In this document: piece after piece, positions 8,463 through 63,776 of the stretch
Layout: each line of letters opens with the position of its first letter
How positions within the stretch are numbered: the stretch's first letter is position 1
Assembly: GCA_007693505.1 (NCBI GenBank)
Contig: REDL01000069.1
Coordinates: 1 to 64,000 of the forward strand
Length of the DNA stretch: 64,000 nucleotides
Source of the DNA: Desulfovibrionales bacterium
Lineage (GTDB): Bacteria > Desulfobacterota > Desulfovibrionia > Desulfovibrionales > Desulfonatronaceae
Reading direction: 5' to 3'
Notes under the pieces: generated by a model
What the model was told of the DNA's origin: nothing
Database searches by the model: none
The model's input: the letters and a program-made list of their open reading frames with translations, nothing else
Made by a program: the position numbers and the translations under genes

Positions 8463-8687
8463 ATGCTGCTTGAAGTGAAATGTTACGCCACCCTGGCCAC
8501 GTTCCAACCCAAGGAGAACGAATTTCATCTCGGACCACGCCCCATGCTTCGAGATCTCGTGGCGTTCCTGGGTATCCCCGAGAACGAAATCAAAATCACC
8601 TTTGCCAACGGGGTGATTGTCGGCCCGGAATACGAACTGCAGGAGGGCGATCGTATTGGCCTGTTTCCGGCTGTTGGAGGGGGCTGA
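8463..8687 (+). CDS. MoaD/ThiS-like ubiquitin-fold sulfur carrier
   Basis: This 74-residue beta-grasp protein ends in VGGG, the diglycine tail that is adenylated and thiocarboxylated in MoaD and ThiS. The pattern of hydrophobic strands, the GDRIGLFPAVGGG end and the immediately following E1-like gene (four bases apart) all support a sulfur-carrier role. In Desulfovibrionales such MoaD-HesA pairs usually accompany tungsten aldehyde oxidoreductases, where they are thought to act in cofactor maturation. No such enzyme is next to it here. The start at 8463 has AAGGA upstream. Confidence 0.85.
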   Translation: MLLEVKCYATLATFQPKENEFHLGPRPMLRDLVAFLGIPENEIKITFANGVIVGPEYELQEGDRIGLFPAVGGG

Positions 8688-8691
8688 GGCC

Positions 8692-9441
8692 ATGCCCGAC
8701 CCGTTTGCGCAACGCTATATACGCAACGGTTCCACCCTCTCGGACGCAGACCAGAACCGATTGGCCGCCACCAGGATCTGTCAGTTGGGCCTGGGCGGCC
8801 TGGGCGGTACGCTCCTGGAAATGGTGGCCCGGATGGGCTTCAGCCGCAAGGGCCAGGGCTGGATCAAGGCCGCGGACGGCGATGTCTTCGAGGCCAGCAA
8901 TCTGAACCGGCAACTCTTCAGCCTGGAGTCGAACATTGGCCGCCCCAAGGCCGAGGCAGCGCTGGAGCGGATCCAGGCCGTAAACTCGGAGGTGGACCTC
9001 ACCGCCCGGCAAGCTGTCATCAGCCCGGCGGAGATGCCCGGATTCATCCAGGAAGCGGACATCATTCTGGACGCCCTGGGCGACCTGCCAACCAAACTGG
9101 CCTTGCGCCAGGCCGCTGCCGACGCCGGCATCCCCGTGATCAGCGCGGCCGTGGCCGGCTGGACCGGCTTTATCACCACGCAGCTTCCCACTGATCCGGA
9201 CACGGGCATATTTCAGGGCGTGCTCGGCCACAGCCCGATAGCGGACGGCAGTCCCACGCAGGGTGCTGAAGTTCCCCTGGGCACCCTGGCCCCCTGCGTC
9301 TGGTTGATCGCGTCCCTGCAGTGCCGGGAAGCGGTTGCCCTGGCCTGCGGTCGTGCTCCCTTGTTCCATGGCTGCCTGCACATCGTCGACCTGACCGACG
9401 CCTCCTGGGAGCGAATCCTCTTGCCGGTCCTCATCACCTGA
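8692..9441 (+). CDS. HesA/MoeB/ThiF-family E1-like adenylyltransferase
   Basis: The 249-residue protein activates the C-terminus of a ubiquitin-like sulfur carrier by adenylation. It has the ATP-binding GLGGLGGTLLE loop near residue 35, the D...E.SNLNRQLF motif around 65-75 and ALGDLPTKLALR at the end of the nucleotide domain. The paired CxxC motifs that bind zinc in MoeB are not obvious. The start at 8692 follows the sulfur-carrier stop closely, so the genes are translationally linked. The glgE start lies 14 bases beyond its stop, probably in the same operon. Confidence 0.85.
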   Translation: MPDPFAQRYIRNGSTLSDADQNRLAATRICQLGLGGLGGTLLEMVARMGFSRKGQGWIKAADGDVFEASNLNRQLFSLESNIGRPKAEAALERIQAVNSEVDLTARQAVISPAEMPGFIQEADIILDALGDLPTKLALRQAAADAGIPVISAAVAGWTGFITTQLPTDPDTGIFQGVLGHSPIADGSPTQGAEVPLGTLAPCVWLIASLQCREAVALACGRAPLFHGCLHIVDLTDASWERILLPVLIT

Positions 9442-46178: not shown

Positions 46179-47852
46179 ATGGCCCGCGTGCTGATCATTG
46201 ACAGCGACCAAGCCATATGCCGGGTGCTTTCGAAAAAAATCGTCCGCCTGGGCCATGAGGTGCAAACCGCGCATACCCTGGAGCAGGGGTTGCAATCCAC
46301 AACAAACTCGAGCTACGACGTCGTATACTTGGATGTCCGCCTGCCTGACGGCCGAGGGATGGACTCCCTGGCCCGGATCAGCCACGGGCCGGGTGCACCG
46401 GAGGTGATCATCATCACCGGTGATTCCGATCCGGACGGGCCGGAACAGGCCATTCGCAGCGGTGCCTGGGATTACATCCAGAAGCCCTCCTCTCTCAAGT
46501 CCATGATTTTCCCCCTGATCCGGGCCCTGCAGCATCGGGAGAAACAAAAGTCCACCGTCTCCCTCAAGGCGCTCCGCTACGGGGGGATCGTTGGCACCAG
46601 TCCCAGGATGAAGGCCTGCATGGATCTTTTGGCCCAGGTTGCGGACACGGAGATGTCCGTGCTGATTACCGGGGAGACCGGCACAGGCAAGGAGCTTTTC
46701 GCCAAGTCCATTCACGACAACAGTGCACGGGCCAAGGGGCCCTATGTCACCGTGGACTGCGCCTCCCTGCCCGAAAATCTGGTGGAGTCGGAACTGTTCG
46801 GGTCGGTCAAGGGCGCCTTCACCGGGGCGTCAGCAGCCCGGGAGGGCCTGATCATCCAGGCCAACGGCGGTTCGCTCTTTTTGGACGAAATCGGCGAGCT
46901 GCCCTTGGCAACCCAAAAAAAGTTTCTCCGGGTCCTGCAGGAACGCCGCTTCCGTCAGGTCGGCGGAACCACGGAACGTACCAGCAATTTTCGCCTGGTC
47001 TGTGCCACGAATCGCGACCTGGAAGAGATGGTCGTGGAGGAGGCCTTTCGCCAGGATCTGCTCTACCGGCTGCAGGCGATGCACATTGAGTTGCCGCCGT
47101 TGCGGGAACGCCGGGAGGACATCAAGGACCTGGCCGTACACCGGATGCAACGCCTTTGCGAGCAGTTCCGGGTGCCCACCAAGGGCATGTCTCCCGAATT
47201 TTTGGAGGCTCTGGAAAGCTACGATTGGCCTGGAAATGTCCGGGAGCTGTTCAACCTTCTGGAGAACGTCCTGTTTACCACCCGGGATGAAGGCGTGCTG
47301 TACCCGGAGCACCTGCCCATGAATTTACGCATCAAAATCAAGCAGGCCCTGCTGATCAGGTCGAAAAACAACACCATTGCAGAGGAATCCGAGGACCCGG
47401 CATACCACGACGACGACCACGAAGACGGCGAGGATGTCGGCATGACCCCGCTCGCCACGGCCGCATCGGGCCAAACCGCTCCACCCGGGACAACTTCCGA
47501 CCATGTGCCGCCCATGGCCCGGGAAACCCAATCTTCCCCCGAATCTCTCTCGGAATCTCTCTCGGAATCCCCCTCGGAATCCCCCTCCGTCTACCCTGCC
47601 ACGATATCCCGGCTCGACGGCCTTGCCCCGCCCCCGGGCGAACTGGACGAAGCCTTTTCCAGCGACCCGCACGCCCCCTTCCCGACCCTGCGGGAACTTC
47701 GGGAAAAGACCGTCGGGACCATGGAAAAACGCTACCTGAAAGAACTTCTCGCCCGTTCCAACGCCGAACTGTCCATTGCCCTCGAACTCTCCGGCCTTTC
47801 CAGGGCCAGGTTCTACGAACTGCTCAAAAAGCATTCGGTTTCCTTCCGCTGA
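46179..47852 (+). CDS. NtrC-family sigma-54-dependent response regulator
   Basis: The 557-residue regulator has an N-terminal receiver (phospho-acceptor Asp in VVYLDVRLPDG) and an AAA+ domain (GETGTGKELFAK, the sigma-54 contact loop GAFTGAS, GGSLFLDEIGELPL, R-fingers in FRQDLLYRL). A C-terminal helix-turn-helix has ALELSGLSRARFYELLKKH. Between AAA+ and the DNA-binding end lies an acidic, low-complexity linker of about 120 residues with DDDHEDGEDV and a run of SLSESLSESPSESPS. GGAGG precedes the ATG. No partner kinase is adjacent; target genes are unknown. Confidence 0.92.
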   Translation: MARVLIIDSDQAICRVLSKKIVRLGHEVQTAHTLEQGLQSTTNSSYDVVYLDVRLPDGRGMDSLARISHGPGAPEVIIITGDSDPDGPEQAIRSGAWDYIQKPSSLKSMIFPLIRALQHREKQKSTVSLKALRYGGIVGTSPRMKACMDLLAQVADTEMSVLITGETGTGKELFAKSIHDNSARAKGPYVTVDCASLPENLVESELFGSVKGAFTGASAAREGLIIQANGGSLFLDEIGELPLATQKKFLRVLQERRFRQVGGTTERTSNFRLVCATNRDLEEMVVEEAFRQDLLYRLQAMHIELPPLRERREDIKDLAVHRMQRLCEQFRVPTKGMSPEFLEALESYDWPGNVRELFNLLENVLFTTRDEGVLYPEHLPMNLRIKIKQALLIRSKNNTIAEESEDPAYHDDDHEDGEDVGMTPLATAASGQTAPPGTTSDHVPPMARETQSSPESLSESLSESPSESPSVYPATISRLDGLAPPPGELDEAFSSDPHAPFPTLRELREKTVGTMEKRYLKELLARSNAELSIALELSGLSRARFYELLKKHSVSFR

Positions 47853-48467: not shown

Positions 48468-50546
48468 ATGGAACACCCCCCCCTCGCCTCCCCCTGCCCG
48501 GACCAGCACGGACCGGCATTCTGCATTATCGACCACGAAGAACGCCTCCTGCACTGGAACCAATCCTTTGCCGACCTCACGGGCATTGCCCGAAAAGACG
48601 AAGATACTCCAATCCTCCTCTCCGCGGCCATCAAACTGGCAACCCCCCTGGATAACGCCTTTCCTGCGACTGATCATGCCCCGCGCAGCGGACATGGCCA
48701 ACTCCACGATCAAGATGGGCAAGCCACACCGGTGACGTTTTTCATCCACCCCATTCCGGACGGAGCGGATCAAGGCAAAATGGTCCGCTTGCTGCTCATT
48801 CACGAGGCCGGGGCAAACCCATTCCAGGACGCCTCGCTCTGCAAGGTGGAACGCCGCTACCAGCGTATTTTTGAGATGTCCCACCGCGGCCTGGCCAAAT
48901 TTGCCGCGGACGGATCACTGCTCTATGCCAACAGTGCATTTGCGAAAATGTTTGGCTGTTCGGATGCACAGGGTGCCCAGGAACAGGGGATGCGCTGGTG
49001 GGAGAAGCACTGTCCAGTGCCGGAACAGTACCACAGGTTGTTCGCCTCTGTGCGGGAACAGGGGAACATTTCCAAGTTCGAGCTGGACGTGCTGGCCAAG
49101 GACGGGCAACCCCGCAAAATTCTCTTGGACGCCTACGTCCCGGACGACCAGAGCCCCCGCTGCACCTCGTCCTTCATTGCCGTGGTTGAAGACATCACCG
49201 AGCAGCATGCCGTGGAGCAGCAACTGTTCCAGGACACATTCACGGATCAGCTCACCGGACTGCCCAACAAATCGCTGTTTGTGGATCGGGTCGAAGCTGC
49301 CCTGCGCAGGGCTAAAGACCAGGAAAACGATCTCTTCGCAGTTGCCTTCGTGGATATCGACGACTTCAAGGTGATCAACGAAACCTATGGCAATGTTCTC
49401 GGCGACCGAATTCTGGTCCAGGTCGGCCGGAAACTGCAGCATGCGGTGCGCGATATGGATCTCGTGGCCAGGTACGGTGATGATGAATTCGTCCTTCTGC
49501 TGGATAAAATCAACGACGAGCGTGAAGCCGTCGGTGTCCTGGAGCGGATCAAGCAGTCTCTGACTGTGCCGCTGGCCATCACGGAGCAGCTGGAAACCGT
49601 CTGCTCCGTGAGTATCGGCCTGGTACTTTCTCCAGGCTATAGTGCTGCCGCCGAGATGCTGCGCGACGCGGACAAGGCCCGGTATAAGTCCATGTCCGAA
49701 AAAAACGGCTCCCCCTTCCCACCGCCGCCGCCGATCACCCTTTTTCGCAAGCCGGACCTGCCCTGGGATGCATATCAGCGGGCCATGGAACGGGGTGAAA
49801 TGTTTCTGCTTTACCTCCCCTCCCACCGGATCAGCGACAACACCCTCATCGGCTTCGAAGCCCTGCTGCGCTGGAATCATCCCCGGCACGGCCTGTTGCA
49901 TCCTGCCAATTTCCTGCCGCTCCAGGAGCCGGAGAACATTGTTTTCCTGACCAAATGGATGCTCGGCCAGGTCTGCTCCCGCATGCACACCTGGCACCAA
50001 ACCTACGACTGCCCTGCACTCTCCACCACCGCGAACATGACCGCGGAATCCTTCCTGTACCCGGAACTTCCTGAAACACTGCAGACCGTCTTCGAGATCA
50101 CGGATCTGGACACCTGCAACCTGAAACTGGAATTTTCGCGCATGGCCATGCACCGCTTTGATGATTTCGGTGAGTTGTGCATGCGCATCAAGGAGTTGGA
50201 CATCCAGCTGGCCGTGGACGACTACGGCACGGGATACTCCACGCTGCTTTCCCTGCAGCGCTATCCCTTCGTGCCCATCGACACCTTGCAGGTGAATCGG
50301 CGGGTCGTTGCCCGGTTGCCGGACAACAGCTACTACCAGGAAATGGTCTGGGCCACGATCATGCTGGCCCACAGCCTGGGCGTGGAGGTTGAGGCGGATG
50401 GCGTGGAGACGCAGGAACAACTGGCTTTGCTTCGCGACATGCACTGCGACTCGGCCAAGGGCAGGCTGTTTTCCAAGCCGCTGGAGACCGACGCCGCGGA
50501 AGCCCTGCTCCAAAACCACTTCACCTCCCGGCCGCTATTGAATTGA
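48468..50546 (+). CDS. PAS-GGDEF-EAL protein with degenerate catalytic motifs
   Basis: The 692-residue protein has one or two PAS domains (to about residue 245), GGDEF-like (about 255-415) and EAL-like (about 430-680) domains. The GGDEF site reads YGDDEF. In the EAL domain GFEALLRW is kept, but LEITE-type residues read LEFSRM, the LKID motif is LQVN, and AEGVE is ADGVE. Metal-binding and catalytic residues are thus altered and hydrolysis of c-di-GMP is unlikely. It may instead be a c-di-GMP receptor. It lies just upstream of polysaccharide-precursor genes on the same strand. No strong ribosome binding site is seen before ATG 48468. Confidence 0.85.
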
Positions 50547-53395: not shown

Positions 53396-54190
53396 ATGTC
53401 CCGTCACAAACCGGCCACATTGTGGCTTGTCGCTCTATTATTTTTCTTTTCTTTGCTCGCCCCAGATAAGTTTGTATTTGCCCAAGAACTGTCCCCCAAG
53501 CAAATTGCCCAGCGGGTTTACGACAGGGATGTCGGGCAGGATTCGCAAAGCCGAATGACGATGGAACTGATCAGTGCCCGGGGGCAACACAGAATCCGGG
53601 AATTGACCGTTCTTGTTCGGGATGATGGACCAATTCGCAAAACCTTCATGCGCTTCACCGCGCCGGCGGACATCAATGGCACCGGTTTTTTGTCCATAGA
53701 GGACGGCCAGGGAGGAACAGAACAATTTCTCTACCTCCCTGCCTTGAACCGAACCCGACGGATCGCCACAGCACAAAAAAATCGCAGTTTTGTGAATACA
53801 GATTTCACATTTGAAGACATGGAACGCCGCCCGGTGGATGACGCGGAACACGCAATTACCGGCACAGAGTCCCTAGGTGGCGTGGATGCCTGGATACTTG
53901 AAAGCCATCCCAAACCCACAAGCAATTCCCAGTACGGAAAGGTCCGTATTTGGGTTGCCCAGGATATTTTTGTTCCCTTAAAAATCGATTTTTTCGATAA
54001 ACAGGAGCAACACATTAAACAGTATCGTGTTCTTCAGCTGGAGCGTATCCAGGAAATCTGGACGGAAACCAAGGTGGTAATGGAGGACCTTGGCACCGGC
54101 CACAGGACTATTTTGGAAATCCATTCAATACACTACAACTCGGGGTTACCGGAATCTCTTTTTACACGCCAAAACCTTGAGGCGTGGTGA
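53396..54190 (+). CDS. LolA-like outer-membrane lipoprotein-sorting-type periplasmic protein
   Basis: The 264-residue exported protein has a signal peptide (LWLVALLFFFSLLAP...VFAQ) and a LolA/LolB-like fold. Pattern elements are ELSPKQIAQRVYDRD, IRKTFMRFTAPADINGTGFLSIE (in pieces), FLYLPALNRTRRIA and KVRIWVAQDIFVPLKIDFFD. Proteins of this type are encoded with RND/MMPL transporters and beta-barrel proteins and probably ferry a lipid-like cargo across the periplasm. Here the barrel gene follows, and the MMPL gene lies 7 kb further on. The start at 53396 has GGAGAA upstream. Confidence 0.85.
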   Translation: MSRHKPATLWLVALLFFFSLLAPDKFVFAQELSPKQIAQRVYDRDVGQDSQSRMTMELISARGQHRIRELTVLVRDDGPIRKTFMRFTAPADINGTGFLSIEDGQGGTEQFLYLPALNRTRRIATAQKNRSFVNTDFTFEDMERRPVDDAEHAITGTESLGGVDAWILESHPKPTSNSQYGKVRIWVAQDIFVPLKIDFFDKQEQHIKQYRVLQLERIQEIWTETKVVMEDLGTGHRTILEIHSIHYNSGLPESLFTRQNLEAW

Positions 54191-54721
54191 AACCTGGAAA
54201 ACTTTGACAAAAGAGTGCCATCTGCATAGAATAATTACATTTATTTTTTACAATCTGAAAAAATCAAATCATCACAGGAATTTCAGGAATCCATCCAACG
54301 TTTTGAAGATAAGTCGACGTCACACCGGGATAATCTTTCAATAGTTGAGTGTTGAAAAATTCCTTGCCCACAGTCCGTTCAAAAGTCCCCCGTGCACGAA
54401 GCAATCCGGCACTTACCAGAGAGTCTCGCACCGAATACGCGAAGGTGTTTTTGATAAAAGGAAGTTCCGGAGTAGCGACGCAGCAATTGGGAGTTTTGCT
54501 ATGGCCTGGATGACACCAGAATATTTCTGACAGCGCCATTGGGCGCTGAGCATGTAAAGTTGGCACCAGATTGCGCCGATAGAGTAAACAACCATAGCCC
54601 ACATGGCAGCAACCTGAAACCTCGGACAGAGCCAACGCTTGTTGCCATTTTCTCCGGGATTACTCCTAAGATAACGGATTTTTTGTCTTTACCACACTTA
54701 CTGACCCAGCTTCCGGAATCC
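54191..54721. other. Spacer with dispersed repeat
   Basis: This 531-bp gap holds repeat copy F in its first half. The rest, with GGCGC repeats near 54535 and AT-rich sequence, shows no gene. An in-frame extension of the barrel gene exists from 54539 but lacks a signal peptide until 54722. Confidence 0.4.
54349..54500 (-). repeat. Dispersed inverted-end repeat, copy F
   Basis: It starts GTGTTGAAAAATTCC, CAGTCCGTTCAAAAG, and ends GCAATTGGGAGTTTTGC. Internally it shares GAAGCAATCCGGCACTTAC and AAAAGGAAGTTCCGGAG with copies C and G. It is in reverse orientation. Confidence 0.8.
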
Positions 54722-56671
54722 ATGAACAACGTTACCAAACGGCTCCACAAACAGGTCGCTCTTCTCTGCCTATGTTGCGCACTCTGTTTTTTCCCTTCAC
54801 TTGCAGGAGCCGCAAGCCCGTCAGAACCTCCCAATGTTGCGCTTACTATCGGTAACGGCAATGATATTGTCATTCTATCCATCTCCAGTGAACCGGAGCA
54901 GGTCCATTCCTTCACGCTATCCTCCCCTGACCGGTACGTCCTGGACCTCTACCCGGCTACCTTGCAAAAAAAAGGTCTCCTGAGTCTGGACTCGCCACAC
55001 CCCGGTATCCGAGGCATCCGCGCGGCTCGGCATACTTCGCAAACCGTACGTGTTGTCCTGGATCTTCATCAGCCTGAGGACTTCCTGACGCTTGCGAAGC
55101 CGCAAACATGCGAGAAGAGTACTTATGATATTGTCATCATGTATTCTCCGCAAAAAACTGATGAGCCATCACCTTCAAAACAGGCCCTGAACTCGACTTC
55201 CCTGCAACCGACTGCAGTATCCCGTGGTCCTGCAACAGCCACCTCCGAGCCACAACCGGCCTCCTCTCAGTCCGAGCCCTCTATACTGCTTTTCTCCGCA
55301 GACCCCACTACACACATCGCCGCCTCCGAAACAAAGCCATCGTTGCTTCCGGATTCCTTGGAACTCGGCGGTTTTGTTGAGTTGAAAGCAGCCTTGAACA
55401 CCCGGCGGGCAAACTCTTCCCAAATCCCACAAACCTTTCGCAACCGGATCAGGCTGGAAGGCAAATGGTCACCTGGGGCCACACCGGAAGACATGTTTCA
55501 GCAGGTAGGTGATCACGACGTTTTCCTCCTGGCCTCAGTGCAATCCGACTACCTCCGGTTCAAATCAAACCAGACAACCAGCGATTCGGATCTGGAGCTT
55601 TTTGAGGCCTATATGCATTGGTCCAGGAATCCCTGGGAAGTTCGACTTGGTCGCCAACGCATCCGCTGGGGCAAAACAGATGAAGTCAGCCCAGTTGACA
55701 ACCTCAACCCAGAGGACCTTCGAGAATTTCTTTTACCAGACCGTGAGGATCGCAAAATTCCCAATTGGATGGCCAGGGTACGCTATTTTTCTGAAAAAAT
55801 GACTCTTGAAGGTGTCTTCATACCTTTTTTTGAGCCTTCACGATTTGCCTACTTCGGGACGGACTGGTCCCTACTCCAAGGAATCGAGGATCTGGTCACG
55901 GCTCCAACACCCGCAGTCTCTCCTCACCCCTTGTATCAGCAGCCTGCAGTTCTGGAGCAAACACCACATCGGCGCTTCACAAATGGAGACTGGGGGCTGA
56001 GAGTTTCCAAGACACGAGGAAACATGGATATGGCCGCAAGCTATCTCTATGCCTGGCAAAAGCTTCCACATATCCAGGGATTCACCCCGGATGCCATGGA
56101 GATATTTGAAAGAAATGGTGTCCTTAGCCAGTCCTCGTCTTTTCAGGCATGGAACCATCCAGCCGCACTCGCAGCCACCTTTCGCCGGATAAACATTGTT
56201 GGTCTGGAGCTCGAGACAACGCTGGCTCAATTTGGTCTGCGTGGCGAAGCAGCCTATTTTGACCGGAAGACCCTGCATACCATCAATCTGGACTCCACCG
56301 AAAAACCAGTTCTGCAATATGTTCTTGGGGTGGATTACCTCAGTGCGAATGAGTGGTACCTCAATATCCAATTCGGTCATCAGGTCATATTTCAACATGA
56401 CCAGGACCTGCTTTTTTGGGAAAAAAATGATTTTTCCGTGAACGGGGAAATCAGTCGGGCTTTTTGGCGGGGCAACTTTGAGACGGTCTTCCGGTACCAC
56501 TATAACCTGGTGGACGATGCATACCTGCTTCGCCCTTTCATTGTGGTCCGTCCGGATGGCAACTGGGAATTTACTCTTGGAGCAGATCTGGTTGAAGGGC
56601 CAAAATCATCAATTCTGGGTAGATTTCGGGATAATGACCGTTTTTATGTCAATATCAAGTACATATTCTGA
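54722..56671 (+). CDS. Outer-membrane beta-barrel protein with N-terminal AMIN-like domain (DUF1302-like)
   Basis: The 649-residue exported protein starts at ATG 54722 with a signal peptide (LCLCCALCFFPSLAGA). An AMIN-like domain follows (about 35-135, with HSFTLSSPDRYVLDLYP and VRVVLDLHQPEDF), which in other proteins binds cell-wall or pilus components. A low-complexity linker of Ser/Pro/Glu (about 145-225) leads to a barrel that resembles DUF1302-type outer-membrane proteins, with VRLGRQRIRWGKTDEVSPVDNLNPEDLR (in pieces). The last residue is Phe, as expected for barrels. Neighbours suggest it is the outer-membrane part of an export route. Codon use is less GC-rich than upstream. Confidence 0.82.
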   Translation: MNNVTKRLHKQVALLCLCCALCFFPSLAGAASPSEPPNVALTIGNGNDIVILSISSEPEQVHSFTLSSPDRYVLDLYPATLQKKGLLSLDSPHPGIRGIRAARHTSQTVRVVLDLHQPEDFLTLAKPQTCEKSTYDIVIMYSPQKTDEPSPSKQALNSTSLQPTAVSRGPATATSEPQPASSQSEPSILLFSADPTTHIAASETKPSLLPDSLELGGFVELKAALNTRRANSSQIPQTFRNRIRLEGKWSPGATPEDMFQQVGDHDVFLLASVQSDYLRFKSNQTTSDSDLELFEAYMHWSRNPWEVRLGRQRIRWGKTDEVSPVDNLNPEDLREFLLPDREDRKIPNWMARVRYFSEKMTLEGVFIPFFEPSRFAYFGTDWSLLQGIEDLVTAPTPAVSPHPLYQQPAVLEQTPHRRFTNGDWGLRVSKTRGNMDMAASYLYAWQKLPHIQGFTPDAMEIFERNGVLSQSSSFQAWNHPAALAATFRRINIVGLELETTLAQFGLRGEAAYFDRKTLHTINLDSTEKPVLQYVLGVDYLSANEWYLNIQFGHQVIFQHDQDLLFWEKNDFSVNGEISRAFWRGNFETVFRYHYNLVDDAYLLRPFIVVRPDGNWEFTLGADLVEGPKSSILGRFRDNDRFYVNIKYIF

Positions 56672-56790
56672 CGATATTTAGGATATGAACAATTATACAT
56701 CTAACCAGCCAGATGTTGGCTTGACATAATCATGCCTTTGAATATCGAAGTGCATCGCGCAGTCATAAGTCTGATTGAAATGGAGGAAAT

Positions 56791-57660
56791 ATGCCCTTAG
56801 CCCAAAAGCGCTGGTTGCGATTCCCGGATGCGGAACCAATGAGCACGCCGGACTACCCTTCTTTTTGTGATATTGACTATTCCTTTAAAATCGCATCCTC
56901 CCGCAAGGAACTTTCCCAGGCCTTTCATCTCCTTTATCAGGAATACCGCAAGGCAGGTTACGTCACGACGAAGACAAGCAAAACTCTTTTCACCAAATAC
57001 CATCTTCTTCCGGAGTCGACTGTTTTTATCGCAAAGAAAGAAAACAGAATTTTTTCTACAGCGACTATCGTCTATGACTCCCCGGAAACCGGACTTCCAA
57101 TGGATTGCCTGTATGCTGAAGAGCTTGCGAAACTTCGCGCTAACCAACGAAAAATTCTGGAAATCACCTCCCTTGCCTCAGAAAAATCGCTGACAGGATT
57201 CCATATCGCCATGAATTTTACTCGATTGGTTTTTCTTTACAGCATATTTCAGGATGTCAACGATATCTGCATCATGGTCAACCCCCGCCACGTTGCCTAT
57301 TATGCACGCTACTTTCCGTTCACTGTTTTTGGGGAAGAAAAGTATTACTCCAAGGTGGATGCGTTAGCCGTAGGGCTTCGAGTTGACGTTGACAGAGTAC
57401 GCGATTTTTTTGAGCGATCCAGTTTGATATATACGATCGGACACCAATTCTTCACCTACTATCTTTCCGTTAAGATCGCTATAAACTACAATATCGTAGA
57501 GAGCATCTACAGCCCGGACACCCCAACAAAGCCACCGAAGCTTTTTGATGCCCCAACGATCACCAGAATGCTTTCCAAAGAAAATCCCTGCTTTCTTGAA
57601 GACCTGTCGCCCCAGTTCAGAAAGCACCTTGCAACGTGCTATCCGGGCCTTGTTCTCTGA
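56791..57660 (+). CDS. FeeM-like N-acyl amino acid synthase (GNAT fold)
   Basis: The 289-residue protein resembles FeeM, which links fatty acyl groups from acyl carrier protein to an amino acid and is related to LuxI-type synthases. Recognised pieces are FKIASSRKELSQAFHLLYQEYRK (start of the fold), TVFIAKKENRIFSTATIVYDSPETGLPMD, ILEITSLASEKS, and VNPRHVAYYARYFPF. Acyl specificity cannot be read. GGAGG precedes the ATG. It is AT-richer than most of the window. A second acyltransferase of the same superfamily is encoded convergently 300 bp downstream. Confidence 0.8.
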   Translation: MPLAQKRWLRFPDAEPMSTPDYPSFCDIDYSFKIASSRKELSQAFHLLYQEYRKAGYVTTKTSKTLFTKYHLLPESTVFIAKKENRIFSTATIVYDSPETGLPMDCLYAEELAKLRANQRKILEITSLASEKSLTGFHIAMNFTRLVFLYSIFQDVNDICIMVNPRHVAYYARYFPFTVFGEEKYYSKVDALAVGLRVDVDRVRDFFERSSLIYTIGHQFFTYYLSVKIAINYNIVESIYSPDTPTKPPKLFDAPTITRMLSKENPCFLEDLSPQFRKHLATCYPGLVL

Positions 57661-57672
57661 GGCACATTGTAT

Positions 57673-57804
57673 GAGGTTACTGCAAAAAGTCCCTTTTCCT
57701 GCGAAAACGTGTGGTGTGATTTTGCTCAACACCTTGGAAAGACTGGATTCCGGCTTTCGCCGGAATGACGAATTTCAAGGTTTTGCGACTTTCTGCAGTA
57801 ACAT
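57673..57804. mobile_element. 132-bp MITE, copy 1
   Basis: Ends GAGGTTACTGCA and TGCAGTAACAT are inverted, and the 8-bp sequence CATTGTAT flanks both sides (57665-57672, 57805-57812). It contains a REP-like hairpin GGATTCCGGCTTTCGCCGGAATG. It is near identical to the 132-bp copy at 59091. No coding capacity. Confidence 0.85.
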
Positions 57805-57818
57805 CATTGTATACTGGG

Positions 57819-57976
57819 TGTTGAAAAATTTCTGTCCACAGTCCGTTCAAAAATCCAGGTTCACGGAGCAATCCGGCACTTACTGAAAAGCCTCGTACCG
57901 GAATGCGAGAAAACGCCTTTGACAAAAGTACGTGCTGGAAGAGCGACGCAGCAACTGGAAGATTTACAACGGACTG
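57819..57976 (-). repeat. Dispersed inverted-end repeat, copy G
   Basis: It starts GTGTTGAAAAATTTC, CAGTCCGTTCAAAAA and ends TTACAACGGACTG. It lies seven bases after the MITE's target duplication and abuts the stop of the next acyltransferase gene. Same subfamily as C and F. Confidence 0.78.
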
Positions 57977-58729
57977 TTATGCTAAATCAAAATACTGATT
58001 CACATTTTCCGGCAGAAGATTCCGTTCGAGTCCCGCTGCATAAAATTTGAACAAGTCAGGCTTTTTTTCCATGAGATATGGTTCGACATCTCGCAGTATG
58101 CCCAGATATGGAATCCGTTCACCATGATATTGCACGGGTTCTCCAACCTGATGAAACAGCCATCCGAAACGTTTCAGGGCGTACCACAGGGCTTTTTCAA
58201 CAATCATGTACCAATGGCTGATTTCCCGACGTTTGGTCTCCTGATAGACCAGCCTGTACAAACCGAGGACAATGACGGGCCGTTTACGCTTGCTGGATGC
58301 TTCGGTTAGTGCTTCTTCGGATTCCAGCACCCCCCCTTCTTTCTTTAGCAAATAGGACTCAACCCCGTAGAACCCGTCTTCAAGTCGACGACGGTAGTCC
58401 TTGTCCACAGCCAGTCGCGATATTTCTGAGATTTTTTCACTTTGTGGTTTTTCACCAATAAATCCAAATGTTGCAGCATGCTCCATCGGAAACCCTCTGG
58501 GAGAACTCATAATCATCCGAATGGTCCCGATGACCTGACCCTGCTCATTCAATGCCGCAAAGTGAATGGAGCAAGGATCAAATTCATCCATTTCCAGGCC
58601 TTCAGGGTGATCCTCGGGCTTCTCAAATCCAAACTCTTCCACATAAACACGGTAACGCAAACGATAAATTGCCTCTTTCATTTCTTGCGTGTCCGCTCGC
58701 ACAAAACGGAACTGCCCAATGGAAAACAT
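57977..58729 (-). CDS. PEP-CTERM/exosortase-associated acyltransferase (N-acyl amino acid synthase type)
   Basis: The 250-residue enzyme is a LuxI/GNAT-like acyltransferase of the family seen near exosortase systems. The pattern is YRLRYRVYVEEFGFEKPEDHP, then DEFD, AALNEQGQVIGTIRMIM and ISEISRLAV; the conserved acidic residues of the fold are present. The start at 58729 (MFSIGQF) has GGGGGAG five bases upstream; the longer frame upstream is not preferred. Members probably attach fatty acyl chains to an amino acid or a polysaccharide unit. It is transcribed against the FeeM-like gene. No exosortase is in the window. Confidence 0.85.
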   Translation of the reverse strand: MFSIGQFRFVRADTQEMKEAIYRLRYRVYVEEFGFEKPEDHPEGLEMDEFDPCSIHFAALNEQGQVIGTIRMIMSSPRGFPMEHAATFGFIGEKPQSEKISEISRLAVDKDYRRRLEDGFYGVESYLLKKEGGVLESEEALTEASSKRKRPVIVLGLYRLVYQETKRREISHWYMIVEKALWYALKRFGWLFHQVGEPVQYHGERIPYLGILRDVEPYLMEKKPDLFKFYAAGLERNLLPENVNQYFDLA

Positions 58730-59345
58730 GTGACTCCCCCTCGTTAAAGGTTTTTCCTGGAAAAGAACGGGAAAAACAACTTGTTTCAAGATTGCATTTG
58801 CAACGACCTTACAATTTTCTGAATACAGGGCAAAGATGTACTTGAATGTACTCATGCTGGAAAAAGTGGACGAGAAGGCCTGTCTAACAGCGTTTGCATA
58901 CAGAAATGGAATAGAAAGGGGGTTGGCAGACATACCGGACAGCGCTGGCCAGAATCCATCCCTGGAGCTTCCTGGAGCTTCCTGGGTATTTTTCTACTTC
59001 CCAGCTCAGATGAATGCAAGAAAAAGCGATATTTTCACATATTGACCATCCATCTGGTCGAGAATCATGGCAGCACATACTCCATCGTATGAGGTCACTG
59101 CATAAAGTCCCTTTTCCTGCGAAAACGTGTGATGTGATTTTGCTCAACACCCTGGAAAGACTGGATTCCGGCTTTCGCCGGAATGACGAATTTCAAGGTT
59201 TTGCGACTTTCTGCAGTAACATCATCGTATGATCTCAATGCATAAATCATCGCTTGACCGCTTCCGCCATTCAGGCCAAAATTAAATCTTGATCCTGAGA
59301 GAATAAAATGTATCCCCTCATGCATTCGGAACTGGAAGGAAAATC
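58730..59345. other. Divergent spacer with MITE copy 2
   Basis: The 616-bp region between divergent genes carries the second 132-bp MITE and a tandem duplication CCTGGAGCTT twice near 58968. No gene was recognised. Promoters for both flanking genes should lie here. Confidence 0.45.
59091..59222. mobile_element. 132-bp MITE, copy 2
   Basis: Only a few bases differ from copy 1. Ends GAGGTCACTGCA and TGCAGTAACAT are flanked by CATCGTAT on both sides (59083-59090 and 59223-59230). Because the flanks differ from copy 1 (CATTGTAT) but match each other, this is an 8-bp target duplication from an independent insertion. Confidence 0.87.
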
Positions 59346-61379
59346 ATGAACCAGCCACTCATCGCCGAGATCCTCGAGAAGTACAATCTGAATTCCGAAG
59401 ATCAATATCATCGTACTGCATTTTCCAGGAACGTCGGACTGCTGAGCCCTGGAGAGCTTGAGCGGTTGGCCAAGTCCACCGTGGCGATTGCCGGCATGGG
59501 CGGCGTGGGTGGAGTGCATCTGATCACCCTGGTTCGCAGCGGTGTTGGCCGGTTCCATTTGGCAGACTATGATTTATTTGAGCCGGTGAACATCAACCGC
59601 CAATACGGGGCCCGAGTTCCAGATTTCGGCCGTCCCAAGCTGGACGTGATGAGTGAGCAGGCCACGGCCATCAATCCCTTTGTGCACATTACGCCATTTG
59701 CACAAGGCGTTACCTCGGAAAACATGGATGCCTTTCTGGAGGGGGTAGACGTTGTTCTGGACGGCTTGGACTTTTTTCAGTTTACAGTCCGCCGGGAACT
59801 GTTCAACCGCGCCCGCGCCTTGGGCATTCCTGTGATCACGGCCGGCCCCCTGGGTTTCAGCTCCGCCTTGCTCGTCTTCACCGCACAGGGGATGGGCTTT
59901 GATCAATACTTTGATGTCCACGACGCCCTGCCCGAGGAGGAGAAGTACCTGCGCTTCGCCCTTGGTCTCGCGCCGCGGGCCACTCACCTGGCCTATATGG
60001 ACACCTCTCGCGTGGATCTCAAATCAAAGAAAGGTCCGTCCCTGTACATTGCCTGCCAGATCTGCTCCGCCCTTGCGGCCGCGGAAGCTGTGCGGATCAT
60101 CCTCGGCCGCCCTGGGCAAAAACCCGCACCGCACTTCTTTCAGGTTGACCCCTACACCCTGCAATGCCGCCGAGGCCAGCTCCGTGGCGGAAACCGCAAC
60201 CCCGCCCAGCGTTTAAAGATCAAGGTGGCCAGAACCATGCTCATCGCGGCCACATCCGGCCCCACCGGACACCCGCCCACGGCCCCGGCATCGCCGGAAG
60301 GTCCGGGCCCGTTGCCGGAAGATGTGCTCGCGTACATTATCCGGGCCGGCATCCAGGCTCCCTCTGGAGACAATGCCCAGCCTTGGCGCTTCAGTGTCAG
60401 GGATGACACCATATCCCTGTTCCTCAACCCTGCCGCGGATACCTCGTTTTTCAACGTCAACCAATACGCCTCCATCATTGCCTGTGGCGCAGCCCTGGAA
60501 AACATGCGCCTGGCCGCTACCCGGTTTGGTCTGACCGCCAAGACCATGCTTGTCCCGGACCCTGTCCAACCAACCCTCATGGGGCGATTGCCCCTGGAAC
60601 AGGTTCAATGCCCGCCCGATCCCTTGGAAGAGCATGTCTGGTGGCGATGCACCAATCGCAAACCTCTCCAGAAACACCCCCTGCCGCAATGGATGATCAG
60701 CCGTTTGCAGAGGGAGACATCCCTATTCTCCGGCACTCACCTGCATCTGCTTACGGAGCGAAAGCAACTCCGAAAGCTGGCCAAAATTGTATTCCGGGCC
60801 GACCGAATCCGCTCCGAACACCGCGACCTGCACGAGCACTTCATGAGCATGGTCCGCTTCACTCCGGAAGAGGCGGAGACCGACCGTACCGGATTGCCCC
60901 TGAAAAATCTGGAAGCAGGCCTGCAGGGCGAGCTGTTTCTGAAAATGACCCGGCCCTGGTCCGTAATGAAGGTGTTCAACGCCCTGGGCATGAGCCGCAT
61001 GGTGGCTTCCTACGCGGCCCAGGGCATCCTGAACAGCGGAGCCGCCGGATTGATTTCGGTTGATGGGCGGGAAACCGCTGATTTCCTGCGTGGCGGCCAG
61101 GCCCTGCAACGCATCTGGCTGGTGCTGGACTACCTGGGTCTGCGCATGCAGCCCATGACCGCCATCACCCTGTTCCGCCTTCGGGTCCGCGATGCCCAGG
61201 GTCAGGGATTCTCCCCCGGCCATGCCGCGCTCCTGGAGAAGCTCTGGGGCGATTACCAGGCCCTGTTCCCGGCACTGAACCTCGACAGCCACAGCGAGAT
61301 CATGCTCTTCCGCATGGGCTATGGGCCGGCGATCCGGCACCGGACCTGGCGGCAGGACGAGGAACACCTCAGGGCCTGA
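59346..61379 (+). CDS. ThiF-family adenylyltransferase fused to nitroreductase-like domain
   Basis: The 677-residue fusion begins with an E1-like domain (about 1-290: GMGGVGGVHLITLVRSGVG, DYDLFEPVNINRQYGA in pieces, and YIACQICSALAAAEAVRI). It continues with a nitroreductase-like FMN domain (about 325-675: IQAPSGDNAQPWRF, INSGAAGLISVDG-like segments and ALQRIWL). The family resembles Rv1355c-type proteins. Function is unknown; adenylation of a carboxylate followed by flavin oxidation or reduction is plausible. AAGGA precedes the ATG. It is encoded between N-acyltransferase genes and an MMPL exporter, which suggests it tailors the same product. Confidence 0.85.
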   Translation: MNQPLIAEILEKYNLNSEDQYHRTAFSRNVGLLSPGELERLAKSTVAIAGMGGVGGVHLITLVRSGVGRFHLADYDLFEPVNINRQYGARVPDFGRPKLDVMSEQATAINPFVHITPFAQGVTSENMDAFLEGVDVVLDGLDFFQFTVRRELFNRARALGIPVITAGPLGFSSALLVFTAQGMGFDQYFDVHDALPEEEKYLRFALGLAPRATHLAYMDTSRVDLKSKKGPSLYIACQICSALAAAEAVRIILGRPGQKPAPHFFQVDPYTLQCRRGQLRGGNRNPAQRLKIKVARTMLIAATSGPTGHPPTAPASPEGPGPLPEDVLAYIIRAGIQAPSGDNAQPWRFSVRDDTISLFLNPAADTSFFNVNQYASIIACGAALENMRLAATRFGLTAKTMLVPDPVQPTLMGRLPLEQVQCPPDPLEEHVWWRCTNRKPLQKHPLPQWMISRLQRETSLFSGTHLHLLTERKQLRKLAKIVFRADRIRSEHRDLHEHFMSMVRFTPEEAETDRTGLPLKNLEAGLQGELFLKMTRPWSVMKVFNALGMSRMVASYAAQGILNSGAAGLISVDGRETADFLRGGQALQRIWLVLDYLGLRMQPMTAITLFRLRVRDAQGQGFSPGHAALLEKLWGDYQALFPALNLDSHSEIMLFRMGYGPAIRHRTWRQDEEHLRA

Positions 61380-61469
61380 CAGTTGCGATGGCGGCGGTAA
61401 GAGTCTCCCCTGAACGACAACGTTCACAGCTCTGTCACGCCTGATCTGGAGCAATAAAAAATAGTCCCC

Positions 61470-63776
61470 ATGCCCACCAGAGCCCAACGACTTTCGAAAC
61501 TGCTCGTCAGCCACCCCGTGGCCAGCCTGGTCCTGGCCCTCCTGCTGGCGCTGCCGCTGATGGCCCATGCCCCGTTGATCCGTACCGTGGACAATGTGGA
61601 CTATTTTGCCCTGGATGATGATCCGGACGCCGACTACTATGAGGAAATCAGACGTATTTTCGGCAATGACGAGTTTTTCGTCATTGCCTTCGAGAGCCAG
61701 GATATTTTTACTGCCCCGAACCTTTCCGTCCTGGCGGCCATAACCAGCGAACTGGAACGGCTCCCAGGTGTTCGGGACGTTCAGAGCCTGGCCAATGTGG
61801 ACTACATTGACGGGTCGGACGGCTATTTCGAGGTCCGTCCGTTTCTGGAATCCATCCCCAGCACCCCCCAGGAGCTCCAGCAGTTGCGGCGGCAGGCCAT
61901 GGCCAAGCCGATATACCGCGCCAACCTGATTTCCGATGACGCTCAAACCGCGGCCATTGTCGTTTTTCCCCTGGACCAGCCCGATGACAGCGGATTCAGA
62001 AAAAATCTGCTACTGCAGACCCGGCAAATTCTGGAACAGCACCGCGGTGACGTGGAACGCTTCGCCCTCGCCGGCTGGACCATCACCAATTACGATCTCA
62101 GCAGATACATGAAGGCGGACATGTTCAGCTTCATCCCCCTCTCCTACCTGCTGATTATCACCATTCCCTGGATCTTTTTCCGAAATACCCGCCTCACGCT
62201 GATCGGATTGGCCGGAATTACCGCCTGCGTCGGTTCCACCATGGGGTTGATGGCCTTTTCTGGAATCACCTTGAACAACGTTACCATTATCGTGCCCCCC
62301 CTGGTCATGGCCCTGGCCCTGGCGGACAGCGTGCACATTTTTTCGCTTCTGACCAGGTCAACGCTTGAACGTGCCCAAACCGGCCCGCGAGCCCTGGCCG
62401 ATGTTTTGGCCAGAGTCATCGTTCCCAGTTTCCTGACCTCCGTGACCACAGCGGTCGGCTTTCTTTCGTTGTCCGTGAGTACCATTGAACCCATTCGCGA
62501 ATTTGCATTCATGGCCTCGGCGGGGATGGTCTTCAAATTCTTGCTGACATTTTTCCTTTTGCCGCCACTGATTCTCCTGTGTGACCCGGCAAAAATTTAC
62601 ACCCGGCAAACGCAGACACTCCGGATCACCTCTCTGCTCAACTGGCTTTGGCGGCTCATTTCCAGACACTCCAAGGTGATCATCTGTCTCTTTTTCCTGG
62701 TGATCGGGGGCAGCATTTGGTCGGCAACCCGAATTCCCGTGGAAACCAACCTCCTGGAATTCTTCAAAAGCGGCAGCCCGATTCGGCAGGACCTGGCTTT
62801 CGTGGAGTCCCGGCTCGGAGGAGTTGGCAGCCTGGACATCTCCCTGCGGGCTGATGAGCCGGATGCGTTTCTGGAGCCCAAAAATCTGCGCATCATCGAA
62901 GCCATCCAGCAGTTCATCGACGCCAGGCCGGCCGTAGACAGGACCATGTCTTTCAACGATTTCCTGAAGGACATGAACCAGTCTTTCCATGACGGGCTCC
63001 CCGGCTTCCACACCCTGCCCCAAAGCCGTGAACTGACTGCCCAGTATCTCCTGCTCTATGATTCCGACGATATCGCCGACTTCATTACCCCGAGCCATGA
63101 TCATGCCCGCATCACGGTGCGCATCTCCGAGCACAGCTCCGCGGGGCAGGCCGCACTGGTAGAGGAAATCCGCTCCTTCATCAGCAATCTCGATGACCAC
63201 CCACTGCACATCCGGGTCACCGGGCAGGCCATGCACAACGTGAACACCATCGAGGCCCTTGTCCGGGGGCAAGTCACCAGTATCGCCCTGGCCACGGGAG
63301 TCATCGGCCTGATCATGATCCTCGGCCTGCGCTCCCTGTCCATGGGGCTGATCAGTTTTCTGCCGAATTTGTTTCCAATCGTGTTGAATTTCGGGATTAT
63401 GGGTCTATTCGCCATCCCCCTGAACACAGCTACCGCGCTGATCGCCGTGGTCGCCCTGGGAATCGCCGTGGACGACACCATTCACTTCCTGACCACGTAT
63501 GCCGCGAAACGCAACGCCGGGCAGGATGTCGCAACCTCCCTGGAGCGGACCCTTCAGGACAAGGGTCCGGCCTTGATCATCACATCCCTGGTGCTTTGCG
63601 CCGGTTTCAGCATCATGCTTTTCAGCAACTTCATCCCCACCACCCAATTCGGGATTCTCACCGCGGTGATCATGCTCACCGCCTTGGTCGGGGACCTTCT
63701 TCTGTTACCGGCCGTCTTGCTGGGAATCAGCAAAACCCGGTTGCTGGGGCCTCGCCTCCAAAAGATCCACTCCTGA
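61470..63776 (+). CDS. MMPL/RND-superfamily transporter
   Basis: The 768-residue inner-membrane protein has two symmetrical halves, each with one helix, a periplasmic domain and five helices. The second-half motif GIAVDDTIHFLTTYAAKRN and first-half ALADSVHIFSLLTRS carry the proton-relay Asp residues of the family. It closely follows the pattern of hopanoid/lipid exporters (HpnN-like) and mycobacterial MmpL proteins. It is likely to drive export of the lipid or N-acyl product made by the neighbouring enzymes, with the LolA-like protein and the barrel as partners. The gene lies 90 bp after the ThiF fusion. Confidence 0.9.
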   Translation: MPTRAQRLSKLLVSHPVASLVLALLLALPLMAHAPLIRTVDNVDYFALDDDPDADYYEEIRRIFGNDEFFVIAFESQDIFTAPNLSVLAAITSELERLPGVRDVQSLANVDYIDGSDGYFEVRPFLESIPSTPQELQQLRRQAMAKPIYRANLISDDAQTAAIVVFPLDQPDDSGFRKNLLLQTRQILEQHRGDVERFALAGWTITNYDLSRYMKADMFSFIPLSYLLIITIPWIFFRNTRLTLIGLAGITACVGSTMGLMAFSGITLNNVTIIVPPLVMALALADSVHIFSLLTRSTLERAQTGPRALADVLARVIVPSFLTSVTTAVGFLSLSVSTIEPIREFAFMASAGMVFKFLLTFFLLPPLILLCDPAKIYTRQTQTLRITSLLNWLWRLISRHSKVIICLFFLVIGGSIWSATRIPVETNLLEFFKSGSPIRQDLAFVESRLGGVGSLDISLRADEPDAFLEPKNLRIIEAIQQFIDARPAVDRTMSFNDFLKDMNQSFHDGLPGFHTLPQSRELTAQYLLLYDSDDIADFITPSHDHARITVRISEHSSAGQAALVEEIRSFISNLDDHPLHIRVTGQAMHNVNTIEALVRGQVTSIALATGVIGLIMILGLRSLSMGLISFLPNLFPIVLNFGIMGLFAIPLNTATALIAVVALGIAVDDTIHFLTTYAAKRNAGQDVATSLERTLQDKGPALIITSLVLCAGFSIMLFSNFIPTTQFGILTAVIMLTALVGDLLLLPAVLLGISKTRLLGPRLQKIHS

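Follow-up and report, generated by a model that had tools for sequence, protein, structure and literature searches.

A probable oxazolone-lipid synthesis and export locus linked to an exosortase system in a sulfate-reducing member of the Desulfovibrionales

Results and discussion

A 10.4-kb locus of contig REDL01000069.1 probably encodes the synthesis and export of an oxazolone (azlactone) lipid, as part of an XrtA exosortase cell-surface programme. The clustering of its genes exceeds chance, and the set recurs in shuffled order in other families. The strongest new result is the linkage of its ThiF-nitroreductase fusion (ThiF-NTR) to exosortase, which was found in 38 of 39 genomes carrying the fusion. 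The window, i.e., the whole stretch of 64,000 nucleotides analysed, belongs to a sulfate reducer, as indicated by dsrB in the genome.

Gene content of the locus

Profile searches of the open reading frames located all six proteins named in the original prediction within positions 53396-63776, each confirmed by a profile match at its place (Table 1). Their presence and position were thereby upheld; however, the TIGR03694 gene is opposite in strand to the other five and therefore lies outside their operon, so that the proposed six-gene cluster has to be narrowed in this respect.

Table 1. Coordinates of genes and repeats at the locus, numbered from the first letter of the window
Feature	Position	Strand	Basis and remarks
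LolA-like periplasmic protein, signal peptide	53396..54190	+	PF17131 (also DUF1329), 211 bits; 53396 is the better start
AMIN domain + DUF1302 outer-membrane beta-barrel	54722..56671	+	PF11741 + PF06980; signal peptide present; 54722 is the better start
FeeM-type N-acyl amino acid synthase, paralogue clade B	56791..57660	+	PF21926, 146 bits; tree
Dispersed 148-nt repeat, left of TIGR03694 gene	57665..57812		
TIGR03694 PEP-CTERM/exosortase-associated acyltransferase	57977..58933	-	183.5 bits vs cut-off 111.95; true start probably ~58732
Second direct copy (96%) of the 148-nt repeat, right of TIGR03694 gene	59083..59230		
ThiF/E1 cyclase fused to Acg-type flavin oxidase, OxzB/TrzS-like	59346..61379	+	ThiF PF00899, 152 bits
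MMPL/RND transporter, HAE3-like	61470..63776	+	MMPL PF03176, 110 bits; D668-T-I-H672 motif

The FeeM domain of the window protein reached 145.9 bits against a Pfam cut-off of 27 and matched the solved FeeM 2g0b with E=2.8e-12. In the tree this protein fell in clade B. The clade-A FeeM, which elsewhere is the partner of ThiF-NTR or is fused to it, is absent from the window, an observation that speaks against an oxazolone reading. Next to the window fusion gene lies the TIGR03694 acyltransferase. Joint action of the two acyltransferases on one scaffold, as in the original prediction, is a putative role. The TIGR03694 gene has a 76% identical copy in locus L009 and is confined to the genus of the window plus one distant locus. 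Its assignment as exosortase-associated rests on a score over the model cut-off together with an exosortase in the genome, at C7:82298-83056.

The NCBIfam model for Rv1355c (TrzS) matched the window fusion with E=1.7e-85 and 287.7 bits, under the equivalog cut-off of 476 bits, so that the fusion is a homologue and a candidate equivalog of TrzS, whose chemistry may differ from that of TrzS. In TrzS itself, a ThiF cyclase and a flavin oxidase are joined in one protein, which carries out an ATP-dependent cyclisation and then an O2-dependent desaturation (PMC12856293). In the predicted model of the window fusion (pLDDT 89), the halves matched ThiF (Z 27.2) and MsAcg 2YMV (Z 31.9), the same two structural templates as for TrzS (PMC12856293). 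Across 29 relatives, the E1 residues G50xGGVGG, R64, D76, N82, N84, R85, Q86, K98 and D142, as well as the SGDNxQPW motif, are invariant or nearly so; D142, invariant in all 29, aligns to the conserved Asp of ThiF/MoeB. The fusion also contains invariant R489 and Q602, 113 residues apart, which were compared by spacing alone with R540 and Q651 of TrzS, 111 residues apart. The host reduces sulfate, while the characterised desaturases use O2; this observation also speaks against an oxazolone reading, and raises the question of how members of an O2-dependent desaturase family could operate in an anaerobic host.

As for the candidate exporter, the nearest solved chain to the LolA-like protein was 9tp6 (E=1.3e-42). 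The predicted barrel model matched the Wzi, OprD-Occ and AlgE barrels, tied at Z ~20, and a PDB sequence search with the barrel profile returned no match. TIGR00921 (HAE3) was the best NCBIfam model for the MMPL protein, yet its score of 210.9 stayed below the cut-off of 351.9. No AmeC-type second periplasmic protein was present among the gene calls at 53.4-63.8 kb.

Co-conservation in relatives

FeeM adjoins ThiF-NTR in nearly every Desulfovibrionia locus, including 22 of the 22 loci of family f2. On Nitratidesulfovibrio vulgaris plasmids, FeeM, ThiF and NTR form a single protein of 989 aa (PRK14852, 2397 bits); the plasmid search returned three N. vulgaris plasmids and one Bdellovibrio plasmid with a lone E1. 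ThiF and the oxidase are separate proteins in families f19 and f40. The scan of genome contigs for ThiF-NTR gave only two loci, and the distribution therefore rests on genome samples within one phylum.

The LolA, barrel and MMPL genes are interleaved with FeeM, E1 and NTR genes, in varied orders, in families f1, f98, f99, f100, f72 and f19, and partially in f40, f94 and f43. The interleaved triad is thus not limited to one class and extends over several families; a reading as unrelated neighbours was rejected because the interleaving persists through reordering. In the genomes of family f66 the E1 stands alone, but each has a LolA-barrel-MMPL triad elsewhere, in one of them accompanied by three FeeM genes and an NTR; f66 was therefore dropped as a counter-example. 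The FeeM, ThiF-NTR, MMPL, LolA-like and AMIN-barrel genes are thus co-conserved, in agreement with the idea of one synthesis-plus-export locus, and the opposite outcome, which the original prediction had named as grounds for its rejection, did not occur. The triad is nevertheless missing from many ThiF-NTR loci, among them all 22 of f2, and triads without FeeM exist at loci L171, L176, L178 and L179, so that the exporter is neither obligatory for such loci nor specific to them.

Linkage to exosortase

Exosortase occurs in 38 of the 39 ThiF-NTR genomes of Desulfovibrionia compared with 47 of 309 others (p=8e-26 per genome, ~1.5e-4 per genus). When ThiF-NTR and exosortase are on one contig, they lie within 54 kb (30 of 30 pairs). 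For the window genome, an XrtA/PEP-CTERM locus with exosortase, PrsT, EpsB_2, chain-length, TyrKin and PEP-CTERM target genes begins just beyond the window on the same contig. PEP-CTERM protein genes adjoin the fusion in many loci and, in the window genome, are found 1.5 kb past the MMPL gene. As a second ground for its rejection, the original prediction had named that the acyltransferases belong to unrelated exosortase polysaccharide loci. This is half true: the locus does adjoin an XrtA/PEP-CTERM locus, but the strong tie of ThiF-NTR to exosortase shows it to be connected with that system and not a chance neighbour.

This tie leads to the hypothesis that acyl-oxazolones, whose physiological role is so far unknown (PMC12856293), serve the exosortase-built cell surface. 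Our literature search found no paper joining ThiF/nitroreductase with exosortase as one system, and none joining DUF1302/DUF1329 with MMPL. The coupling of oxazolone genes to a three-part lipid exporter and exosortase appears to be undescribed.

Proposed mechanism and alternatives

We infer a scheme covering the chemistry, product, amino acid, cargo, direction of transport and role. A FeeM-type acyltransferase would acylate an amino acid with a fatty acyl group. The ThiF half would adenylate the carboxylate, allowing the amide oxygen to close a five-membered oxazolone, and the Acg-type flavin half would desaturate the alpha-beta bond. The product, either the oxazolone or its hydrolysed N-acyl dehydro-amino acid, may then pass to the HAE3-type MMPL protein, be carried by the LolA-like protein and leave by way of the AMIN-DUF1302 barrel. 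The product would act at the surface or matrix that the adjacent exopolysaccharide/PEP-CTERM genes build. In an improbable extension, the reactive azlactone lipid would serve, once exported, as an activated acyl donor for the covalent lipidation of surface components of the exosortase system (exopolysaccharide or PEP-CTERM proteins), and the O2 requirement of the desaturase would make its formation in these anaerobes an oxygen-triggered switch for aggregation.

The end product could instead be an open N-acyl dehydro-amino acid, such as the thalassotalic acids, kyonggic acids and stieleriacines, with the oxazolone an intermediate at most. Producers of such open compounds carry the same set of NAS, ThiF and nitroreductase, with no oxazolone seen there (PMC12479983), and the ready hydrolysis of oxazolones (PMC12856293) points in the same direction. 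However, oxazolones do not survive isolation with acid or alcohol (PMC12856293), which makes their absence weak evidence, and ThiF is retained throughout and in some cases fused to FeeM; we regard an open end product as unlikely. We give a similar, rather low likelihood to the triad exporting another cargo, polysaccharide-linked or another lipid, as a mere neighbour. The FeeM-less triads, the Wzi and AlgE matches of the barrel and the f2 loci that manage without a triad are in its favour, whereas the nearest MMPL subfamily stands beside biosynthetic genes (10 of the 12 non-self matches above 500 bits adjoin FeeM, E1 or TIGR03694 genes) and the interleaving outlasts changes in gene order.

It is quite improbable that FeeM, TIGR03694 and ThiF-NTR serve exosortase itself, for example by making an amino-lipid to be joined to PEP-CTERM proteins and delivered by MMPL, LolA and barrel. 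The near-absolute genome linkage, the neighbouring PEP-CTERM genes and the reported prior link of N-acyl amino acid synthases to PEP-CTERM (Craig 2011) would fit such a role; but 47 exosortase-bearing genomes of the class lack ThiF-NTR against 38 that have it, indicating that the fusion is not required for sorting, and an oxazolone, being an electrophile, is no obvious acceptor. Since MccB and PaaA were also among the fold matches of the fusion model, modification of a peptide or protein, as in RiPPs, was considered as well. No recurring precursor peptide accompanies the fusion, and the FeeM fusion and the TrzS/Acg matches favour an acyl-amino acid substrate; we rejected this role on the latter grounds and hold it to be highly improbable. 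Oxazolone-lipid synthesis and export thus remains our preferred reading.

Comparison with known systems

The original prediction knew of no described pathway; however, the FeeM and ThiF-NTR core is that of the published oxazolone pathway, in which OxzA/OxzB, TrzA/TrzS and TyzA/B/C form acyl-oxazolones from N-acyl aromatic amino acids (PMC10404671, PMC12856293). As in TrzA/TrzS (Rv1356c/Rv1355c; M. smegmatis, R. jostii) and OxzA/OxzB (Pseudoalteromonas rubra), a FeeM-type N-acyltransferase accompanies a ThiF-flavin oxidase fusion, the transferase being represented here by the FeeM and TIGR03694 genes, adjacent or fused in relatives. In contrast to these systems, the window locus has a sulfate-reducing host, an export triad and a neighbouring exosortase locus, and its relatives include the triple FeeM-ThiF-NTR fusion. 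TyzA/B/C of M. tuberculosis likewise combines an acyltransferase, ThiF and a flavin oxidase, and these genes are flanked by mmpL9, whose association with them is putative (PMC10404671); there, ThiF and oxidase are separate and no LolA or barrel is reported.

AmeABCD of Castellaniella defragrans is a DUF1302, LolA/DUF1329 and HAE3 exporter of apolar compounds (PMC6394551). The window similarly has a HAE3-like pump whose partners are a DUF1302 protein of the outer membrane and a LolA/DUF1329 protein of the periplasm, but differs by the missing AmeC homologue, the added AMIN domain and a presumably different cargo. Craig, Cherry and Brady (2011) reported an earlier link between N-acyl amino acid synthases and PEP-CTERM/exosortase; there, as here, FeeM/TIGR03694-type enzymes are associated with exosortase loci, and to our knowledge ThiF-NTR and the exporter are not among the systems described. 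The chemistry is known in other bacteria, and what appears to be new is its joining to an exporter and an exosortase system.

Gene content and host

All six genes of the original prediction, encoding a LolA-like protein, an AMIN-DUF1302 barrel, FeeM, a TIGR03694 acyltransferase, a ThiF fusion and an MMPL transporter, were confirmed. The genome is a 3.94-Mb draft, and its host is considered a sulfate reducer because dsrB is present (485 bits). Third-position GC is low (0.47–0.54) in the LolA, barrel, FeeM and TIGR03694 genes (53396–58933) versus 0.73–0.88 in the flanking genes, including MMPL and ThiF-NTR, the ThiF half fused to an Acg-type nitroreductase (59346–63776); this contrast hints at a mixed ancestry of the locus.

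Features of the locus and its surroundings (window positions; C7, contig position)
Feature	Position	Strand	Remark
ThiF/MoeB-type adenylyltransferase	8617-9441
Sigma-54 response regulator	46179-47852
GGDEF/EAL-type protein	48468-50546
LolA-like gene	start 53396		not first start codon
AMIN-barrel gene	start 54722		not first start codon
TIGR03694 acyltransferase gene		minus	between FeeM and ThiF fusion
Dispersed repeat, direct copies	57665-57812 and 59083-59230		flanking TIGR03694 gene
Diverged repeat block	54356-54508 and 57824-57976		upstream of barrel gene; beside TIGR03694 gene
PEP-CTERM protein gene	C7:65292-66254

Conservation of the gene neighbourhood

Of the 297 phylum-sample genomes, 17 matched the FeeM-ThiF-NTR model strongly, and ThiF-NTR was detected in 39 of the 348 class-sample genomes. 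Up to 20 kb were fetched around most ThiF-NTR matches, and genes were labelled with profiles built in this analysis. Five of the six predicted genes were found together, in shuffled order, in several families and beyond one class. FeeM, ThiF-NTR and the triad of MMPL, LolA-like and AMIN-barrel genes co-occur in varying order in families f98, f99, f100, f1 and f72, where some of the loci are incomplete or truncated at the end of a contig. In f19 the same set is present but ThiF and NTR are encoded separately, and f40, f94, f43, f44 and f10 have the set in part. Since the genomes of f72, f19, f40, f94, f43, f44 and f10 are absent from the class sample, the locus crosses class borders. In f2, FeeM directly adjoins ThiF-NTR in 22/22 loci and the triad is absent. 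On N. vulgaris plasmids FeeM-ThiF-NTR is a single 989-aa protein (PRK14852, 2397 bits), encoded between XrtA polysaccharide genes and PEP-CTERM genes. This fusion and adjacency are strong evidence that the acyltransferase and ThiF-NTR work one after the other.

One locus (G280, L048:7781-14843) has FeeM and the triad, lacks ThiF and continues with acyl-CoA-ligase-like and B12-binding radical SAM-like proteins, possibly a different tailoring route. A Bdellovibrio plasmid carries a lone E1 (ThiF-type gene) of this type (L058:9977-10852) with adjoining ABC transporter genes.

Two acyltransferases

The FeeM tree splits into two main groups, A and B (two ACYLTRANSFERASES). Group A holds the FeeM proteins that partner ThiF-NTR or are fused to it; the window FeeM falls in group B. 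The window genome and G324, of the same genus, are without clade A FeeM and have TIGR03694 in place, while their congener G320 lacks TIGR03694 and carries two FeeM genes; we infer from this distribution that TIGR03694 may have replaced clade A FeeM in the former two. The triad occurs in 12/14 loci with two acyltransferases (exceptions include a cut contig) versus 3/30 with one, a comparison confounded by family. The dispersed repeat beside TIGR03694 (~135–148 nt, mostly 92–98% identical) has a REP/MITE-like copy number, and its flanking position is suggestive only, because about 30 near-full copies are scattered genome-wide. The second, more diverged block is 72–82% identical, with a spacing of about 3468.

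Association with exosortase and c-di-GMP genes

The window genome encodes one exosortase, 18.5 kb beyond MMPL; CAAX-protease-like, PrsT, EpsB_2, export, chain-length, kinase and ATPase genes lie between. Exosortase was present in 38/39 class-sample genomes with ThiF-NTR versus 47/309 others (Fisher p=8e-26; the ~1.5e-4 obtained by counting genera is fairer because genomes are not independent), and in 15/17 versus 87/280 in the phylum sample (p=4e-6). All 30 class-sample ThiF-NTR/exosortase pairs on one contig are spaced 13–54 kb. Craig et al. (2011) reportedly tied N-acyl amino acid synthases to PEP-CTERM; our literature search found no link of ThiF-NTR or oxazolones to exosortase. The sigma-54 response regulator resembles the PEP-CTERM-box regulator (318 bits versus a cut-off of 503).

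An association with c-di-GMP is recurring: a GGDEF/EAL-type protein, recognized by eye, lies 3 kb upstream of the window locus, PilZ genes flank FeeM/ThiF-NTR in f2, and M. tuberculosis trzAS is flanked by c-di-GMP genes (PMC12856293).

Comparison with known oxazolone and export systems

The core of the locus is known chemistry. The 677-aa fusion best matches PRK14851 (991 bits versus a cut-off of 1170) and also the Rv1355c-family model (E=1.7e-85; 288 bits, below the cut-off of 476). TrzS, which is Rv1355c, cyclises N-acyl-tryptophan with ATP and then desaturates it with O2; TrzA, encoded next to it, makes the N-acyl amino acid (PMC12856293). OxzA/OxzB and TyzA/B/C apply the same chemistry to tyrosine or phenylalanine (PMC10404671). 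The predicted model of the fusion (pLDDT 89) matched ThiF over 230 residues (Z 27.2, 2.3 A) and M. smegmatis Acg 2YMV over 299 residues (Z 31.9, 2.6 A), the same two templates named by the TrzS authors. Across 29 relatives there is little or no variation at the adenylation motif residues, D142 among them, or in the oxidase motif SGDNxQPW. The window's ThiF/MoeB-type adenylyltransferase is unrelated and usable as an outgroup.

From the directly observed genes, residues, co-conservation, fusion and exosortase linkage, we infer each step of a route in which acyl transfer would be followed by cyclisation and desaturation, then export and a surface role. Going by what is established for these families, the probable product would be an acyl-oxazolone or its hydrolysis product, an N-acyl dehydro-amino acid. 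The main puzzle is an O2-using desaturase family in a sulfate reducer, as the characterised desaturases use O2 (PMC12856293); either the electrons go to an acceptor other than O2, or the product arises only upon O2 exposure.

In a control ranking across the phylum, 10 of the 12 non-self matches to the window MMPL above 500 bits adjoin FeeM, E1 or TIGR03694 genes; most weaker matches do not, and several retain LolA and the barrel. This argues that the triad may be a general lipid-export module, one subfamily of which accompanies the FeeM/ThiF-NTR pathway. In f66, where E1 stands alone, the triad is elsewhere in the genome (3/3). The predicted barrel model matched Wzi, OprD/Occ and AlgE barrels, tied at Z near 20, a fold that says nothing on cargo. 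The MMPL is HAE3-like, its best NCBIfam model being TIGR00921 with a score under the cut-off; the LolA-like protein also matches DUF1329, and the barrel is DUF1302. HAE3, DUF1329 and DUF1302 are the families of AmeD, AmeB and AmeA, respectively, in the AmeABCD exporter (PMC6394551).
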